38,882 nt of DNA from an uncultured Cytophagales bacterium (GTDB taxonomy: Bacteria; Bacteroidota; Bacteroidia; Cytophagales; Thermonemataceae): contig CALLAC010000038.1 of assembly GCA_938002655.1 (NCBI GenBank), positions 1 to 38,882 of the forward strand. Reading direction: 5' to 3'. This document shows positions 26,283 to 32,813 of this stretch, in pieces. How positions within the stretch are numbered: position 1 is the stretch's first letter; each line of letters begins with the position of its first letter. A program made the position numbers and the translations under genes. Below the pieces are notes generated by a model. It searched no databases. It had not been told where the DNA came from and was given only the letters and a program-made list of their open reading frames with translations.

Positions 26283-26672
26283 TTATATTTTTTCATACAA
26301 CCGAAACCGCTGATGTACAAAAAATCGTTCGGTGCGTATAGAGCCGTCTTTTTCAATCGTTTCAATGTTTGTTCTTGTAGTAGTGCTATAAATGGGCTGG
26401 AGAGCGTGTTTCCAGGCAAATTGCACCAGCAGGCAGGTAGCCCCAAAGTCGCCTTGTATGAGTAGCAAATCATTTTTTTTTGCATTTTTTTCTATCCATC
26501 GGAAAATAGGCGTAAGATATTCGGTAAGTGCGGGCAACTCGGGGGGAATGTTGCTCCACAATTCTTGTAAATTTTCGGGTAAATAAATAAAACGCTCTAC
26601 TTTCCAGTTGCTTTGAGCGTCTTGAATTTGTTCTTCTGTAAGCCGATGCGAAAAAAGTAGATAGAGGGTCAT
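26283..26672 (-). CDS. csx20: CRISPR-associated protein Csx20 (predicted ring nuclease)
   Basis: The 129-residue product resembles the Csx20 family of type III CRISPR loci. It starts with LYLLFSHRLTEEQIQDAQ, followed by LPENLQELWSNIPP, a region ending in FRWIEKNAKKNDLLLIQGDFG plus AT, and a C-terminal tail TERFFVHQRFRLY. The pattern of a Rossmann-like fold with QGDFGAT is the recognisable core. Csx20 has been proposed as a single-domain CARF-related ring nuclease that destroys cyclic oligoadenylate and so switches off the response. I chose the ATG at 26672, because the extension to 26702 overlaps the upstream gene. It overlaps the CARF-nuclease gene by 4 bp and is the last gene of the operon. 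Confidence 0.8.
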   Translation of the reverse strand: MTLYLLFSHRLTEEQIQDAQSNWKVERFIYLPENLQELWSNIPPELPALTEYLTPIFRWIEKNAKKNDLLLIQGDFGATCLLVQFAWKHALQPIYSTTTRTNIETIEKDGSIRTERFFVHQRFRLYEKI

Positions 26673-27796
26673 AGAGAGTTTGTATTGAGCTTTGCTAACC
26701 AATCTTCAAGGGTAATGGTGTTTTCTATGTTGTACTCGTTTTTGGTTATCAAAGTGATATTATGAAATTTGAGGCGGTCTTTGATTTGGTTTTGTTGTGG
26801 TTGTTTTTCATCTGTGGGCAGATTGCCCAAAGTATAAATAAAGGCTTTGGGGAAAATACCAAATTCTTTTCGTAAAGCATCAAGTTTGTAAATGTACTCG
26901 TTGAGGTTGTTTTTACCGTTAATGAGGTGGGAAGTTTTACATTCAATAATATAAAGTTCGTTTTCGTAGATAAACATCACGTCAAAATCGTTATCGGTGT
27001 TTTTGATATCACTTTTTTGCAATATCAGCCCCAAGCCAATGCTATCCTCTGCCAGGTGCAAATGCTTTTTAATTTTGTAGTAGGTGTACTCTTCGAGCCA
27101 CTTGCCTGTAAGGTATTCAGCTTCTTTTTTGGACAATTCATTAGGCTTTTCGGGCGAAAACTCAAAATTTTTCACTAATTCAGCCAAACAAGGCAATTCG
27201 CTGAATGACACTTTTTTGGCATTTTTATTTTTTTCTTGGATAAAATCCCTTAATTCTTTCAGGTTATCTACATTGGTCTGCTCTGCCTCGATAAACTTTT
27301 CATAAATTTTTTGGGAAATATCTTCTTTATAGGCAGGTTTGTAATTTTTATTGATTTTGATGCCGTAGCTGGTCAGGTATTCGGTAAGGGTGATTTTTTG
27401 GGTAAGTTTATTCTTTTCTTCTGTGTTCAGGTTCAAAATTTCATTTTTGCCCGTGAGGTAGTACATAGTAGCATTGGGTTTTGATTTAAAGAACTCATTA
27501 ACGGCAAGGCTCATCAGTTTGGTTCCGCCCGTGATATTTACGAAATATTGGTCGTTTTCGTGGTAATGTTTTTGTAGTTCTTGGATAATTTTATTAGGTT
27601 CAAATTCATTTACATTCAGTTTTTGAATTTGGTTTTCTTGTAAATGAAGTGTATTACAAATCCATTGGCTACAGCCTTTTTTTTCCATAGCTTGGGTAGA
27701 AATAAAGAGATATTTATCAAAGGTGCCAATTTCTTTCATAAACTGCACATTTTGCACGGTTTGGTCGCTAATGATAAGCACTGCAATGTTTGCCAT
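26669..27796 (-). CDS. Card1/Can2-like CARF-domain nuclease (DUF1887 family)
   Basis: The 375-residue protein has an N-terminal CARF domain (about 1-145) with the ligand motif NITGGTKLM (87-95), a linker, and a C-terminal restriction-endonuclease-like domain (about 225-375) with LEEY (234-237), FDVMF (D272) and IIECK (E285, K287), which is the PD-(D/E)XK active site. This is the architecture of Card1/Can2, effectors activated by cyclic tetra-adenylate that nick or degrade DNA and/or RNA. All catalytic residues appear intact. The gene starts 7 bp after csm5 and overlaps csx20 by 4 bp. The cyclic nucleotide (cA4 or another) is inferred from the family and cannot be read directly. Confidence 0.88.
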   Translation of the reverse strand: MANIAVLIISDQTVQNVQFMKEIGTFDKYLFISTQAMEKKGCSQWICNTLHLQENQIQKLNVNEFEPNKIIQELQKHYHENDQYFVNITGGTKLMSLAVNEFFKSKPNATMYYLTGKNEILNLNTEEKNKLTQKITLTEYLTSYGIKINKNYKPAYKEDISQKIYEKFIEAEQTNVDNLKELRDFIQEKNKNAKKVSFSELPCLAELVKNFEFSPEKPNELSKKEAEYLTGKWLEEYTYYKIKKHLHLAEDSIGLGLILQKSDIKNTDNDFDVMFIYENELYIIECKTSHLINGKNNLNEYIYKLDALRKEFGIFPKAFIYTLGNLPTDEKQPQQNQIKDRLKFHNITLITKNEYNIENTITLEDWLAKLNTNSL

Positions 27797-27802
27797 AATT
27801 TT

Positions 27803-29182
27803 TTATTTTTTAAAATTGACGAAAGAAACTTGTGTAATAACACCTTTTTTATTGATTTGACTTACTTTGCAAATGAGGATAGTTCCTTCGGCGAGTTCGC
27901 TGGTGTAGCCTTTCAACTCAAATTCGGGTTCATTGCCTTCGGCTATCATCAGTTTTACTTTATTAGGCTTGCCCGATTTTACTACGATGGCGTTTATTTC
28001 GGTATTTTGTTTGATTTTTGTGCCGGCTTTAAGGTACTCGGCTACGATTTCTTTGGGTTTTTCTTCTTGCTGTAAAGCACCAGGTTCAATTTCCGTATTT
28101 ACGAATTTTGTTGGGTTTTCTTTTGGAATTTCTTTGTCATCTACCTGCAACCAGCCCCAAGGCATTATGGAATCAACTTCGATGGTTTTGGTAATAGGAA
28201 ACTCCGATGCGTTTTTGCTTACTCTGTTGGCAGGCTTGAAATGTTGGAGAAAGTTATTAAACTTTGCCTTGTCGTAATGATACACCGCCAAGCCAATAGA
28301 CTGATAAAAATAACCTTTCCCCGAACCGAGTTTGAAGCATATTTTGCCTTTTTGCAGTTCTTCTTTGAGGTACTCGTAACTATCAAGAAGTTTTTGGCTA
28401 TTTTGATTATAAAATTTTTCAATGATTTCAATATCTCTTTGGTTGGCGTCGCGGCTAAATTGGGCAAGGCAACGGAAAATTTCTTTTATATCGTGAGAAC
28501 TTTTGAAGTGTGTTTCAAGCAAAGTATCGGGGCTGATAGCCTCCCAATACTGCGGTATGCCTGCTTGTTTTTGAGGATTTTTGAGATGAAACCGCACCGA
28601 TTTGTACACCCAAACAGCTTCTTTGGGTGCAAGCGAGCTATCGGCAAAGGCAAGTTTTATTTTTTTGTATTTTTCTTCAATTTTTTCGATACAACTTTTT
28701 GCTTTGTTCTTGTCTTGCAAGTTTTGCAAAAGTTCTTTTATTTGGTTTTTTCCTTCTTGATGATTTTTGAGCCAATCGTAGAGCAAAGCTCCTTTGAATG
28801 CTCCTTTGAGCGAGCTACCAGGCAAGTAAGGCTGAAAGTGAGGCGATTTGATAATTTCGTTGATAAGCACTTTGCCCGATACAGAATTTGTTTTAGGCAC
28901 TACTCGCAAGGCGAGTGTTTTAAAATCGGCTTGTAGGCGATTTTTTATGAAGTTTTTGAGTTCGAAATTGCTTCGGTTGTTATCCATACCGGTAGCTACG
29001 CCTGCCACATATTCGTCGATGAGGCTATCCATATTACCTTTTTGCTTGAAAGCCTCTTTGATTTTTTCGTGGTTGAGAAAATAAACGTATTCACCCTCGA
29101 ATACAAAATCGCTATATGGGGAAAATTTTTCGCCTGTCGTAACCGAAACAGGGCTAATAGTACGAAAATAGAGCTTTTGCAT
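27803..29182 (-). CDS. csm5: Type III-A CRISPR RAMP protein Csm5
   Basis: This 459-residue RAMP protein caps the 3' end of the crRNA in the Csm complex. The RAMP motif PYLPGSSLKGAFKGALL is at 118-134, the glycine-rich loop LGSGKGYFYQSIG at 285-297, and the PWGWLQ segment at 341-346 corresponds to the usual end of Csm5. Another 110 residues follow, with a lysine/glutamate linker and a small beta-rich part (INAIVVKSGKPNKVKLMI, GTILICKVSQINKKG) that looks like an OB-type fold and is not part of the standard domain. It lies between csm4 (5-bp gap) and the CARF-nuclease (6-bp gap). Confidence 0.92.
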   Translation of the reverse strand: MQKLYFRTISPVSVTTGEKFSPYSDFVFEGEYVYFLNHEKIKEAFKQKGNMDSLIDEYVAGVATGMDNNRSNFELKNFIKNRLQADFKTLALRVVPKTNSVSGKVLINEIIKSPHFQPYLPGSSLKGAFKGALLYDWLKNHQEGKNQIKELLQNLQDKNKAKSCIEKIEEKYKKIKLAFADSSLAPKEAVWVYKSVRFHLKNPQKQAGIPQYWEAISPDTLLETHFKSSHDIKEIFRCLAQFSRDANQRDIEIIEKFYNQNSQKLLDSYEYLKEELQKGKICFKLGSGKGYFYQSIGLAVYHYDKAKFNNFLQHFKPANRVSKNASEFPITKTIEVDSIMPWGWLQVDDKEIPKENPTKFVNTEIEPGALQQEEKPKEIVAEYLKAGTKIKQNTEINAIVVKSGKPNKVKLMIAEGNEPEFELKGYTSELAEGTILICKVSQINKKGVITQVSFVNFKK

Positions 29183-29187
29183 AGGAT

Positions 29188-30213
29188 TTACTTGTTTTGA
29201 AAATGATATTTTTCGGGCAAAGCAACCGAGAGGGCTTTGCCATAACGAAGGCGTATGCCATTGTTTTCGTGGAGGTGCAAGGCTTCTATTTTTCCATTTA
29301 CCCCAATATGTACGGCTCCTTCCAAAACTGCCTGTATTACTTTCAGTCGGTAATTATCGGCAAGAAACATTCCGCCACGCAGTTTGCTTTGGTAGAGTAA
29401 GAGCTGGGGTAGTTCGTTTTCTTGGGGAAAGAGCAAGCCCAGAGCCATTTCTTGTTGGCTTTTTTGGCTGAAAAAATCAGGCAGATTTTGAATTTTTTCA
29501 AGGCTTTCCATTTGCCCTGCTCCTGTACTTCGCTCGCCGCCTATGCCCGTATGCGTGAGAGAGTTCCATACCTCATCAAATAGTTTTTGGTCATCTTGGC
29601 TCAAATCGGTGTGGTACAAAAAATACCAATGCACAGTGTAGTATTCGTTTCCGAGCAAAAACAAATCAGTTTGGGAGTAAAGGTTGCCATCTTCTTCGGT
29701 AGTGTGTTTGCGTACTTTGAGGGCATCATCTTTTTTGTAAAGGCTCAAATTCCTGATTTCGTTGGCACTCCCAATTTCTGAAAGATGCACCACGAAGCGG
29801 TCGTCTATAAGATAACAAAATTTCTCATCGAGCCATTGGTCGGGCAGAAGTTGTTCTTGCCAAACTTTCCAAGAGAGAAACTGAATTTTTTTGAGTTTTT
29901 TGTGGTCTATGTTTTCGTTGTGGTACAAGTTGAGGCTTGCGGGTTTGGGCAGAAAGAAAATTTTTTGCTTAGTAGCAGTATGTTCTAAACAATAAAATGC
30001 CGAAGAAATTTGGATTTTTCCATCTTGGAAATAGGCAATAAAAGTCTCTGTTTTTTCGGGATACAGCAAACTCATTTGTGCCACAAAAGCTGAAAACAAC
30101 ACGTCGGAATGAATGTACGTGCTGGTATCGGTTAGGGTATTGCTACGGACTTCGGTCGTTTCGCCCAAATGAAAGCGACTTTGTGGCTTACATTTTAAGA
30201 TAATTGCTTGCAT
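29188..30213 (-). CDS. csm4: Type III-A CRISPR RAMP protein Csm4
   Basis: The 341-residue RAMP protein binds the 5' tag of the crRNA and contacts Cas10 in the Csm complex. Recognisable parts are the N-terminal strand with SRFHLGE (12-18), the SDVLFSAF helix (36-43), which is typical of Csm4, the glycine-rich loop THTGIGGERSTGAGQ (220-234) and the C-terminal segment GIRLRYGKALSVALP. No catalytic residues are expected. It stands between csm3 (9-bp gap) and csm5 (5-bp gap). Confidence 0.92.
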   Translation of the reverse strand: MQAIILKCKPQSRFHLGETTEVRSNTLTDTSTYIHSDVLFSAFVAQMSLLYPEKTETFIAYFQDGKIQISSAFYCLEHTATKQKIFFLPKPASLNLYHNENIDHKKLKKIQFLSWKVWQEQLLPDQWLDEKFCYLIDDRFVVHLSEIGSANEIRNLSLYKKDDALKVRKHTTEEDGNLYSQTDLFLLGNEYYTVHWYFLYHTDLSQDDQKLFDEVWNSLTHTGIGGERSTGAGQMESLEKIQNLPDFFSQKSQQEMALGLLFPQENELPQLLLYQSKLRGGMFLADNYRLKVIQAVLEGAVHIGVNGKIEALHLHENNGIRLRYGKALSVALPEKYHFQNK

Positions 30214-30222
30214 AAAACATTT

Positions 30223-30831
30223 TCAGGATTTCCATTCAATTTTTACTTTTCCATAGCCACGTGTGCCACTGCCACCAAGGTAATCGTTTTGAAGCAAATC
30301 AAAACCTTCTTTGAGTTTTCCAATAAAATCTTCGGTATCTTCTTGGTATTTATCCAATATAATTTCGAAATGAAAGACCGCTCCCGCAGGTACTCGCTCA
30401 ATGGTACGAGGGTGTTTGGCTTTGCCTGTTGGGCGGTCGATGGTGTTTTCGGTTTTTATTTCGGTGTAATCGGTTTCTAATTTGACTTCTTTTTCGGGGA
30501 AATCTTGCCTGAATTTTTCTTCATCTAAATAGGCATCACGAAAGATGAGACGGGTAATTTCTTGCTTTTTATCTTTATCTTCAACGCCTCCAAACATTTT
30601 GCGGAGCAGGTGGCTATCGGTTTTTACGTCCATAGAACCTTCTTTTTTAGCAAGTAGCGAGCGGATTTTACCTTTGAGCGAACTGCCAGGAATGTAAGGA
30701 ACACCTTTGGGAGTTTTGATGACGGGCAAGTCCAATCCGCCGATGTCCAAAGCAGTTTTGGCACCGCCAATGTGCAAACCTGTTTCGAGGGTAATAGTGC
30801 CTGTAAGTACCTTTTTTTCAATGAGTTTCAT
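30223..30831 (-). CDS. csm3: Type III-A CRISPR RAMP protein Csm3, backbone and RNA slicer
   Basis: Csm3 forms the repeated backbone of the complex and cuts target RNA at 6-nt intervals. The 202 residues are of normal length. GLHIGGAKTALDIGGLDLPVIK at about 18-39 carries Asp34, which by alignment with the GGxDxPV pattern is the catalytic residue. GVPYIPGSSLKGKIRSLL (43-60) is the RAMP motif, and YLGGSGTRGYGKV near the C-terminus is the glycine-rich loop. The thumb region with IDRPTGKAKHPRTIERVP is also present. The slicer therefore looks intact. The start is 33 bp after csm2. Confidence 0.94.
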   Translation of the reverse strand: MKLIEKKVLTGTITLETGLHIGGAKTALDIGGLDLPVIKTPKGVPYIPGSSLKGKIRSLLAKKEGSMDVKTDSHLLRKMFGGVEDKDKKQEITRLIFRDAYLDEEKFRQDFPEKEVKLETDYTEIKTENTIDRPTGKAKHPRTIERVPAGAVFHFEIILDKYQEDTEDFIGKLKEGFDLLQNDYLGGSGTRGYGKVKIEWKS

Positions 30832-30864
30832 ATCTTGATGGTATTTGGTTTTGGAAAAATGAAT

Positions 30865-31305
30865 TTACTTATTGCCATAAAACTTATGATATGCCACTAC
30901 GGCTTCCATAAAATCTTTGAAGTTTTCGAGTTGGCTTTCGTCTTTCACTTCCTTGATAAGGCTATCTATAAAAGCCACAAAAGATTTAGCATTTTCAGCT
31001 TTGCCTTCAAGTCTGCCTGCAATATAGGCAAGGTTGGGGCGAATGAGTTTGAGGCTTGCTGGGTCTTTGGCTTTCTTTATTTCCTGAAAGATGTTGCGTA
31101 GCTGATGCGTAGTAATGTCTTTGCCGCGTTCTTGGACAAAATTTTCAGTTGTAGCAAAGATTTCATCAATTTTGGTACTTTGCTTAAATTTGAGCAGTTC
31201 GCGTTTCAGTTCGCCAAAATATTTTTTCCCTTCTTCGGCGAGTTCAGCAAAGGTTTTGGAATTATTATTTTTGTTTTTATCGGGTTGATTTTTTCCTGCG
31301 TTCAT
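30865..31305 (-). CDS. csm2: Type III-A CRISPR small subunit Csm2
   Basis: This 146-residue, largely alpha-helical basic protein is the small subunit of the Csm complex, which lines the target-RNA path next to the Csm3 backbone. TTHQLRNIFQEIKKAKD (about 64-80) and LIRPNLAYIAGR (about 86-97) are typical Csm2 signatures, followed by KSFVAFIDSLIKEV and FMEAVVAYHKFYG at the end. The N-terminus is a disordered Asn/Lys-rich stretch. It lies 17 bp after cas10 in the operon. Confidence 0.92.
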   Translation of the reverse strand: MNAGKNQPDKNKNNNSKTFAELAEEGKKYFGELKRELLKFKQSTKIDEIFATTENFVQERGKDITTHQLRNIFQEIKKAKDPASLKLIRPNLAYIAGRLEGKAENAKSFVAFIDSLIKEVKDESQLENFKDFMEAVVAYHKFYGNK

Positions 31306-31322
31306 AAGCGTAGGGTTTTGTG

Positions 31323-32738
31323 TTATGGATTTTCAGTTTCTTTTCTTGATTTGGTGAGCAGTTCAGCCCAGCGAGCCGCCACAGGAAACACCATTGGGTT
31401 GAGGGCTTTTTCTCGTTTCATAAAAGTTTGCAAGAGGGCTTGCTCGTATTCTTTGAAGATTTGTTCTACAATTTCTTTGATTTCGGGTTTGTCTTTAAAA
31501 TTTCGCAAGTAATATTTAAGGCGATGCACTTTGGGGAAGTTGAGCTTGCCGTTTTGGGCTTTTTCTTGCAGACGAGTAAAGCCAATATCGCTGGATTTGA
31601 TGCGATGCAATACGGCACGAGAGGCGTTTTGTTCATCGATAAGTTTTTGAAACTTTTTTGCGTATTCTTGGGCTTTGGCGAAATCGTTCCAAGTGAGTGG
31701 CTCACCGAAAAGAGTAATTTTGTTTTTACTGTGTTTTTTAGAAAGTTCCAAAGCGTGTTCGGCTTCTTCAGCAATACGCACCATAGGGAATTTGGGTGGT
31801 ACAATTACCACACCTGCCGAAAGGGTAAGATGAAGGTCATTTTTGCTTTGGTAATCGTCAAAGGCTTTTTGTATTTTTCCGGCGGCTTCCAAGATTTTAT
31901 CCCAAGCCCCAATGAGGAAACAATCGTCGCCTCCCGAAAAAATGGGATAGATGTATTCATTTTTGATATATTCTTTGAGGATTTCATAGATTTTTTTCTC
32001 AAAAAATTCGGAAAGTATTTTTGAGTTTCGTTGGTATTCGTCTTGATTTTTATTTCTGAAAAGTTGTCCGAGATTATCTACGTCCATTTTGAGGGCGGCG
32101 AGTTTTGCGTCGCCAGTAGCTTTTTGGGCAATTTCGTCAAACTCGGTGATGCTTTTGTCTTTGCTTAGGGGAAGTTTGTTGAGGATAGTGCCTTCGAATT
32201 GTCGCTCTATTTTAGAGAATTTGAGCACCAATCCTGCTTTTGAGAGGGGGTTGGCACTTGTATTTTTCTCTTTTGCTTCAATTACAAAGCCTGTGGCTTC
32301 AATCAAATTTTCAGTAATTTCTTTCCATTTACTTTCATTGGTGGGTTGGTAGTCGTAGCTGTGCGTGTAGAGAGGTTTTTGCAATTTGGCAATATTAGCT
32401 TTCTGAGCAAGGGCTTGCATTGTAGCTTTGAACTCTTCATTTTTGGGTACATAAGCTACTATGGGAAAGATGTTTTCAGTGGCAAAATCTCGCTGAAATT
32501 CTCGGATACTTTCTCGGAGTTGTTCTTCTTGGCTTTCTACGAAGAAAAATAAATTTCCTCCGCCGTTGTAGAGGACTTCAATTTTGCCTAATGTATTTTT
32601 GAAAAATTCTTCTGCCAGATGGGTAAGCATCTGCACATAGACAGAGCGAGCTTTCAGTTGCCGCGAAGCACCTTTGGAAGGTACATCGAAAATAAAGGTT
32701 TGTATGCCCGAAATATCAATTTTGAGGAGATATTGCAT
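31323..32738 (-). CDS. csm1: Cas10/Csm1, GGDD cyclase without HD nuclease domain
   Basis: Cas10 is the signature subunit of type III CRISPR complexes and makes cyclic oligoadenylate when target RNA is bound. At 471 residues it is far shorter than the usual 750-850. The protein begins directly with the Palm1 motif LLKIDISGIQTFIF (4-17), goes on to the Palm1 strand NGGGNLFFF (58-66), then Palm2 with LKMDVDNLGQLF (216-227) and the intact GGDD cyclase site (269-272), and ends with a helical D4 domain. There is no HD domain, and only 75 bp separate its ATG from the next gene, so no HD part can be hidden upstream. It has a single Cys (C273), so the CxxC zinc ribbon between the Palm domains is also missing. 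First gene of the operon. Confidence 0.94.
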   Translation of the reverse strand: MQYLLKIDISGIQTFIFDVPSKGASRQLKARSVYVQMLTHLAEEFFKNTLGKIEVLYNGGGNLFFFVESQEEQLRESIREFQRDFATENIFPIVAYVPKNEEFKATMQALAQKANIAKLQKPLYTHSYDYQPTNESKWKEITENLIEATGFVIEAKEKNTSANPLSKAGLVLKFSKIERQFEGTILNKLPLSKDKSITEFDEIAQKATGDAKLAALKMDVDNLGQLFRNKNQDEYQRNSKILSEFFEKKIYEILKEYIKNEYIYPIFSGGDDCFLIGAWDKILEAAGKIQKAFDDYQSKNDLHLTLSAGVVIVPPKFPMVRIAEEAEHALELSKKHSKNKITLFGEPLTWNDFAKAQEYAKKFQKLIDEQNASRAVLHRIKSSDIGFTRLQEKAQNGKLNFPKVHRLKYYLRNFKDKPEIKEIVEQIFKEYEQALLQTFMKREKALNPMVFPVAARWAELLTKSRKETENP

Positions 32739-32774
32739 AAAAGTAAGTTGAAAATAATTCTACTACAATACACC

Positions 32775-32807
32775 AAACCTATGAGGTTTAAAAAACCTCA
32801 TAGGTTT
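32775..32807 (-). terminator. Hairpin between acyl-CoA dehydrogenase gene and the CRISPR operon
   Basis: AAACCTATGAGGTTT (32775-32789) and its exact reverse complement (32793-32807) form a 15-bp stem with a three-base loop. The stem starts 7 bp after the stop of the acyl-CoA dehydrogenase gene in the minus direction. A T-run is present only on the plus side, but the position fits a terminator that insulates the cas operon from the housekeeping gene upstream. Confidence 0.6.
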
Positions 32808-32813
32808 TTTAAT

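Follow-up and report, generated by a model that had tools for sequence, protein, structure and literature searches.

We describe the cas10 (csm1) gene of a type III-A CRISPR (Csm) operon in the window, that is, the whole 38,882-nt stretch of contig CALLAC010000038.1 (C38 in our numbering) from a Raineya genome of the order Cytophagales. The encoded Cas10 lacks the N-terminal HD DNase domain and its linker, and with high confidence we read the system as a signalling-only type III-A, in which Cas10 acts only as an RNA-triggered cyclic-oligoadenylate (cOA) synthase. We also lean, much less firmly, towards the view that this Cas10 belongs to a coherent, almost wholly Bacteroidota III-A lineage that lost HD and linker once, without regain among 40 tree rows, and whose compact branch lies largely below the 500-residue floor of two published surveys.

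Cas10 begins at Palm1 and keeps the cyclase site

A sequence-only reading of this DNA had proposed a 471-residue Csm1 that begins at Palm1, keeps GGDD at residues 269–272 and has one cysteine, and the open reading frame (ORF) on the minus strand, the alignments and the predicted structure all agree with it. The protein consists of Palm1 (residues ∼1–86), an inter-Palm region (∼86–212) without a zinc ribbon, the Palm2 cyclase domain and a C-terminal helical domain. The Palm2 site comprises D219/D221 plus GGDD, with the single cysteine, C273, next to it, and D219, D221, G269, G270, D271 and D272 are invariant in 38 aligned sequences. The Palm1–Palm2 stretch is 127 residues long in the window and 83–191 in 36 relatives (the contig-edge row L078 reads 90). 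The start codon is ATG in a stop-to-stop frame of 478 codons, and because only seven codons separate this ATG from the in-frame stop, the frame upstream has no room for a hidden HD domain. The 75 bp upstream of cas10 (32739–32813) contain a palindromic hairpin and then the 3′ end of the next gene, thus the HD part has not moved into a neighbouring frame, as that reading had said.

In pairwise alignments, residue 4 of Cas10 aligns at residues 243–271 of the four solved Csm1 chains in which its position could be read. An AlphaFold2 model built from a 38-sequence alignment (predicted local distance difference test, 89.5; predicted template modelling score, 0.89) has a Palm1 β strand as its first element, and its residues 1–464 superpose on 248–752 of chain 9g9a_A (VIA-align: Z 35.3, 3.0 Å, 421 residues aligned). 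Because the match to 9g9a_A begins at residue 248, the missing piece is the N-terminal ∼250 residues, comprising HD and the helical linker, and the model has no HD fold anywhere, residues 1–200 included. The HD-bearing Csm complexes in the PDB, among them those of Enterococcus italicus (9g9a), Lactococcus lactis and Thermococcus onnurineus, have the same subunits as the window, whereas its Cas10 is without these N-terminal residues and without a zinc ribbon, and, as judged from alignment ranges, its Palm1–Palm2 stretch is ∼62–75 residues shorter than in 9g9a, 7uzw and 8wfx. The type III-B chain 9lq6_B aligns to the model from its own residue 1 (Z 22.5), hence the structure of an HD-less Cas10 has probably already been solved.

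No Cas10-type HD domain found elsewhere in the draft genome

The source genome is a 2.64-Mb draft of 44 contigs and is 97.5% complete. Searching it with TIGR02578 at E values up to 10 returned the window gene plus one weak match only (contig C8, 21.8 bits), which was rejected as a Cas10 HD because the protein is RNase Y. Moreover, a Cas10-HD profile made from the HD part of seven related Cas10s that retain it had no match in seven of seven genomes (that of the window, five others encoding a complete HD-less Cas10, and G097, which has a fragment) and was positive in both control genomes, G411 and G334, of which G411 contributed a profile row. A stand-alone Cas10 HD gene was therefore not found by genome-wide profile search of this draft.

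One alternative is that the DNase is supplied in trans, by Cas3 of a type I-B system or by an unseen stand-alone Cas10 HD, and that the complex is still a functional DNA cutter. The genome does encode a Cas3 with an HD domain (TIGR01596), and G334, another genome of the phylum, carries an HD-only ORF (L161:84-713) and an HD-less Palm ORF (L162:158-2092) on separate contigs. However, Csm is not known to load Cas3, the profiles detect no Cas10-type HD in the window genome, where the HD part of TIGR02578 matches only RNase Y, and G334 more likely holds a broken gene than a stand-alone HD system, because each of its two pieces sits at the end of a contig and they cover adjoining ranges of the profile (1–190 and 189–232). 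We thus consider a DNase in trans improbable. The break in the G334 gene seems to fall at the junction of HD and Palm1 and may be due to a repeated element.

Still less probable is a decayed system, with the truncation marking the onset of pseudogenisation in a locus that no longer works. Against decay, the operon's seven genes are all open reading frames, the cyclase residues do not vary among the 38 sequences, a clade of 40 sequences shares the architecture, operon order is unchanged and length nearly so in relatives whose Cas10 is 65 and 55% identical, and the AlphaFold2 model is confident. Finally, although a 44-contig draft invites caution, an assembly, frame or start-codon artefact hiding an N-terminal domain is scarcely credible given the seven codons and the next gene 75 bp away, the Cas10 starts within a few residues of ours in G014 and in the isolate genome of the congener Raineya orbicola (G025; contig NZ_NKXO01000031.1, locus L083), and the same architecture in independent genomes.

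Loss of the zinc ribbon is not tied to loss of HD

The sequence-only reading had listed the zinc ribbon as absent alongside HD. In a count confined to CxxC motifs, none of the 41 sequences without an HD region has a paired CxxC between the Palms, nor does any of the 24 HD-motif Cas10s from Bacteroidota, the phylum of the window; of the 33 long sequences that have no HD motif, 32 are without the pair, and both outgroup rows (L113 and L114) have it. The ribbon is thus indeed absent from the window's Cas10, but zinc-ribbon loss as a special companion of HD loss is rejected, since none of the 24 HD-bearing Cas10s of the phylum has the pair. In a Bacteroidales Cas10 of 790 amino acids (aa) (L111:807-3179), the HD motif is degenerate (LLCDLG) and the zinc ribbon looks intact; the protein places next to the HD-less group and the neighbouring HD-bearing rows in the tree, and is possibly an intermediate form.

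Distribution and a possible single loss

Matches to the window's Cas10 occur in 21 of 291 genomes of the order, and whole HD-less Cas10s of its type in five of them (the window genome, G014, G025, G047 and G080), with G097 holding a contig-edge fragment. Of 395 genomes of the phylum, 55 have a match to the Csm1 family at E 1e-10, and in 44 the match exceeds the family cut-off. Fetching and typing left aside ten genomes whose matches were all weak and below this cut-off; among the loci retrieved, those of the window and G549 (493 aa) are of the HD-less type and that of G334 is split. On contigs of named genomes, 41 loci were confirmed: 37 are HD-less, one (L078) loses its 5′ end at a contig edge and three are long (L111, L113 and L114). 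Nearly all are labelled Bacteroidota, the HD-less exceptions being L080 (Bacilli) and L108 (Chlorobiota), both from metagenome-assembled genomes. With the three long loci set aside, 27 of 38 have recognisable csm2, csm3, csm4 and csm5, and the remaining 11 comprise eight that run into a contig edge and three in which one csm gene was not recognised. The 100 Cas10 sequences gathered, a non-random sample, comprise 41 without an HD region, 33 long ones without an HD motif and 26 that keep the motif, and HD motifs are blurred or lost in other lineages of the phylum too (e.g. LLTDIG in L136). No relative of the Cas10 was found among viral contigs, where none of 112 pattern-matched stretches was confirmed, and a viral origin was rejected on that ground.

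In the tree, 40 HD-less rows lie on one side of a branch with support of 96 by the Shimodaira–Hasegawa-like approximate likelihood ratio test (SH-aLRT), and in a stricter tree, from which poorly filled columns and two long branches (L110 and L112) were dropped, 38 HD-less rows stay together with support of 99. Left out of the trees were fragments (L078, L106 and L146), copies (L162 of L134, and L094 of L037), and L044 and L045, which are another Cas10, III-B-like by eye. The neighbour of the clade consists of seven HD-bearing rows and L134 (split gene), and the only one of the 41 sequences without an HD region to fall outside it is that of G334, broken at contig ends. Clade members are 426–616 aa long. 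The window belongs to a compact subclade of 13 rows (426–530 aa), in which the inter-Palm region falls to 83 residues and 10 of 13 members are shorter than 500 aa. Read most simply from these sequences, HD would have been lost in one old event at the base of the clade, and the inter-Palm region would have shrunk afterwards in the window's subclade. Two points weigh against this history: the trees are quick searches supported by SH-aLRT only, with many inner forks of the clade open, and the two outgroup rows are not on one side of any branch, which leaves both the root and the reading of a single loss uncertain.

Two published surveys kept only Cas10 proteins longer than 500 aa (PMC11229360 and PMC10600005), and because of this floor 10 of the 40 clade members, the window's Cas10 included, would be excluded.

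Operon layout and a proposed mechanism

The features of the operon are given in Table 1. Genes follow one another on the minus strand in the order cas10, csm2, csm3, csm4, csm5, Card1-type nuclease and csx20, with gaps of 17, 33, 9, 5 and 6 bases and then an ATGA overlap of the last two genes, and the run from cas10 to csx20 looks like one transcription unit. The type III-A subunit set is complete, Cas10/Csm1, Csm2, Csm3, Csm4 and Csm5 all scoring over their profile cut-offs. D34 of Csm3 aligns with the Asp of 'IDSP' in Csm3 chain 6nue_C, which we take to be the catalytic D33 of Streptococcus Csm3. The III-A2 variant is defined by the absence of Cas11 (PMC12669027), and csm2 is present in the window.

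Table 1. Features of the csm operon and its upstream region (positions in the window)
Feature	Positions	Strand	Profile evidence or remark
cas10/csm1, 471 aa	31323..32738	-	TIGR02578 (NCBIfam Csm1) 267.1 bits, cut-off 170
cas10 Palm2 cyclase	within 31323..32738	-	PF22335 123 bits, cut-off 27
csm2 (Cas11), 146 aa	30865..31305	-	PF03750 76 bits, cut-off 24.8; TIGR01870 51.7, cut-off 30.6
csm3 (Cas7), 202 aa	30223..30831	-	TIGR02582 211.8 bits, cut-off 90
csm4 (Cas5), 341 aa	29188..30213	-	TIGR01903 124 bits, cut-off 55; Pfam Csm4_C 23.9, below cut-off 25.9
csm5 (Cas7-like), 459 aa	27803..29182	-	TIGR01899 62.6 bits, cut-off 38.3
Card1/Can2-type effector, CARF + PD-(D/E)xK nuclease, 375 aa	26669..27796	-	PF23400 128 and PF09002 62 bits, both above cut-off
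Csx20 ring nuclease, 129 aa	26283..26672	-	NF040559 162.9 bits, cut-off 70
Palindrome upstream of cas10	32778..32804	.	Genome-wide repeated element; possible terminator of upstream gene

The effector matches no NCBIfam model, but it aligns with Card1 (6wxw) at E 5e-31 with the D and ExK residues of the catalytic motif in register; it shares both domains with Card1/Can2, and by analogy it may be activated by cyclic tetra-adenylate (cA4). Csx20 starts at the ATG overlapping the effector stop (the mechanical ORF extends to 26702), and it has no Pfam family match and no relative in the PDB by sequence. In characterised systems, Can2 is cA4-activated and cuts DNA and RNA (PMC7969007), and Csx20 degrades cA4 (PMC12409355).

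We propose that CRISPR RNAs (crRNAs) would be supplied in trans by the array and Cas6 of the genome's type I-B system, encoded on other contigs, and that the Csm1-5/crRNA complex would bind a phage transcript, which Csm3, with its active-site Asp present, would cut. Target binding would switch on the Palm2 GGDD site to make cOA, probably cA4 to judge from the Card1/Csx20 pairing. The cA4 would in turn activate the Card1/Can2-type nuclease of the same operon, causing DNA and/or RNA damage in trans, and Csx20, if it behaves as its characterised relatives do, would degrade cA4 and end the alarm. The sequence-only reading had confined immunity to RNA cutting and cOA signalling alone; HD is absent and the cyclase motif intact, as it said, but the operon encodes an effector whose characterised relative cuts DNA as well as RNA. 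By this analogy, DNA damage has probably been moved to a cOA-triggered enzyme rather than lost. Three points tell against the signalling-only reading: the cOA species is one that we infer, that the Csm complex draws on the I-B Cas6 and array is likewise a supposition, and an HD gene could conceivably have escaped the 44-contig, 97.5%-complete draft.

Effectors across the clade

Effectors of the clade, typed in part by similarity to a scanned relative only, vary and include Csx1-type CARF-HEPN, CARF-RelE, NucC, Card1 and untyped proteins. A DNA-cutting effector as an obligate replacement of HD is thus not supported, since the clade also has the RNase-type CARF-HEPN and CARF-RelE. Some HD-less csm operons end, in place of a CARF effector, in proteins of 240–290 aa that appear membrane-anchored by eye (L101:6062-6874, L102:5342-6064, L104:15233-16030, L105:14860-15702, L107:15606-16478 and L110:14949-15722); two of these six match the PADLOC model 'Mem_03' weakly, one matches another model weakly and three match nothing, and they are candidate untyped effectors. 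Another HD-less csm locus carries a tandem pair of Card1-type effectors (L085:15728-17832).

When positions 26283–32738 of the window were compared with loci L034 and L035 (G014 and R. orbicola identities), identities to G014, of another family, were 65% for Cas10, 71% for Csm2, 82% for Csm3, 67% for Csm4 and 65% for Csx20, and those to the congener R. orbicola were 55, 62, 79, 55 and 49%, respectively. Csm5 is not closer to G014 (50 versus 54% to R. orbicola), nor is the effector, and G014 has a Csx1-type effector in the slot of the window's Card1-type effector. Together, these comparisons suggest horizontal transfer and effector swapping.

Array, Cas6 and the upstream palindrome

The csm operon has neither array nor Cas6, and the I-B array, cas6, cas1 and cas2 lie on other contigs of the same genome: the I-B locus with the three genes is on C2, beside the array, which an assembly gap seems to divide, one part lying at the end of C26 and the other at the start of C2. 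Cas6 was detected by TIGR01877 and missed by PF10040. The I-B label rests on Cas1b, Cas5b and Cas3, a 668-aa protein in the place of Cas8 matching no NCBIfam model and Cas7 scoring below cut-offs. The III-A operon of R. orbicola has on one side a long array with a near-identical repeat and on the other cas1/cas6; the Cas6 proteins of the two genomes are 86% identical and their Cas10s 55%.

The palindrome upstream of cas10, CCTATGAGGTTT-N3-AAACCTCATAGG, lies in a stretch that folds at −22.3 kcal/mol (z −5.0). With up to three mismatches it occurs at 31 places in the window genome; there are none in two congeners and one in G014. One copy (G000:C26:12846-12881) fills most of one spacer of the genome's own CRISPR array, which is either a self-matching spacer or an element resembling repetitive extragenic palindromes captured by the array.

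Relation to known systems and significance

The loss of HD that the sequence-only reading claimed is borne out by the gene, the model and the genome profile search; the exceptional status that it implied is not, given that a recognisable HD is present in only 65% of III-A loci (437 of 1113 loci overall) in a published survey (PMC11229360) and that an HD-less III-A clade was found here. HD-less Cas10s of ∼600 aa are described in gammaproteobacteria, firmicutes and bacteroidetes, primarily in III-B (PMC8682760). The Cmr systems of Vibrio metoecus (PMC8682760) and Bacteroides fragilis (PMC10600005) resemble the window in having no N-terminal HD and an intact cyclase, and in relying for immunity on a nucleotide messenger together with an ancillary effector. 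However, they are III-B and use cyclic tri-adenylate with NucC or SAM-AMP with CorA, whereas the window is III-A (Csm2 present), with a Cas10 of 471 aa, a Card1-type nuclease and Csx20. The HD-less III-A clade (e.g. Tannerella forsythia, Cruoricaptor ignavus, R. orbicola and Seramator thermalis) shares the window's architecture with varying effectors. No description of this clade was found in a partial literature search; Wiegand 2023 or the Card1 paper may mention it, and parts of it may appear in the Cas10 tree figure of the 2025 classification, on which the presence of HD is marked (PMC12669027).

The HD-less signalling Cas10 of the window is thus a real but largely expected variant, because it belongs to a larger family of shortened Cas10s, mainly of Bacteroidota. 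HD-less Cas10s being already published, the pattern at the level of the clade is a modest addition, and it suggests that the length filters of published surveys hid part of Cas10 diversity. It corrects the idea that III-A must cut DNA with Cas10, DNA damage, if any, being delegated to a messenger-activated nuclease. The compact clade offers small natural Cas10s (426–530 aa) for asking which parts RNA-gated cOA synthesis needs, and the growth of R. orbicola, best near 50°C (PMC5982127), may suit structural work. If these proteins retain discrimination of self from target RNA and on/off control of cOA synthesis, HD, linker and zinc ribbon would be dispensable for that control, and the compact Cas10 would be a natural minimal RNA-triggered cyclase.
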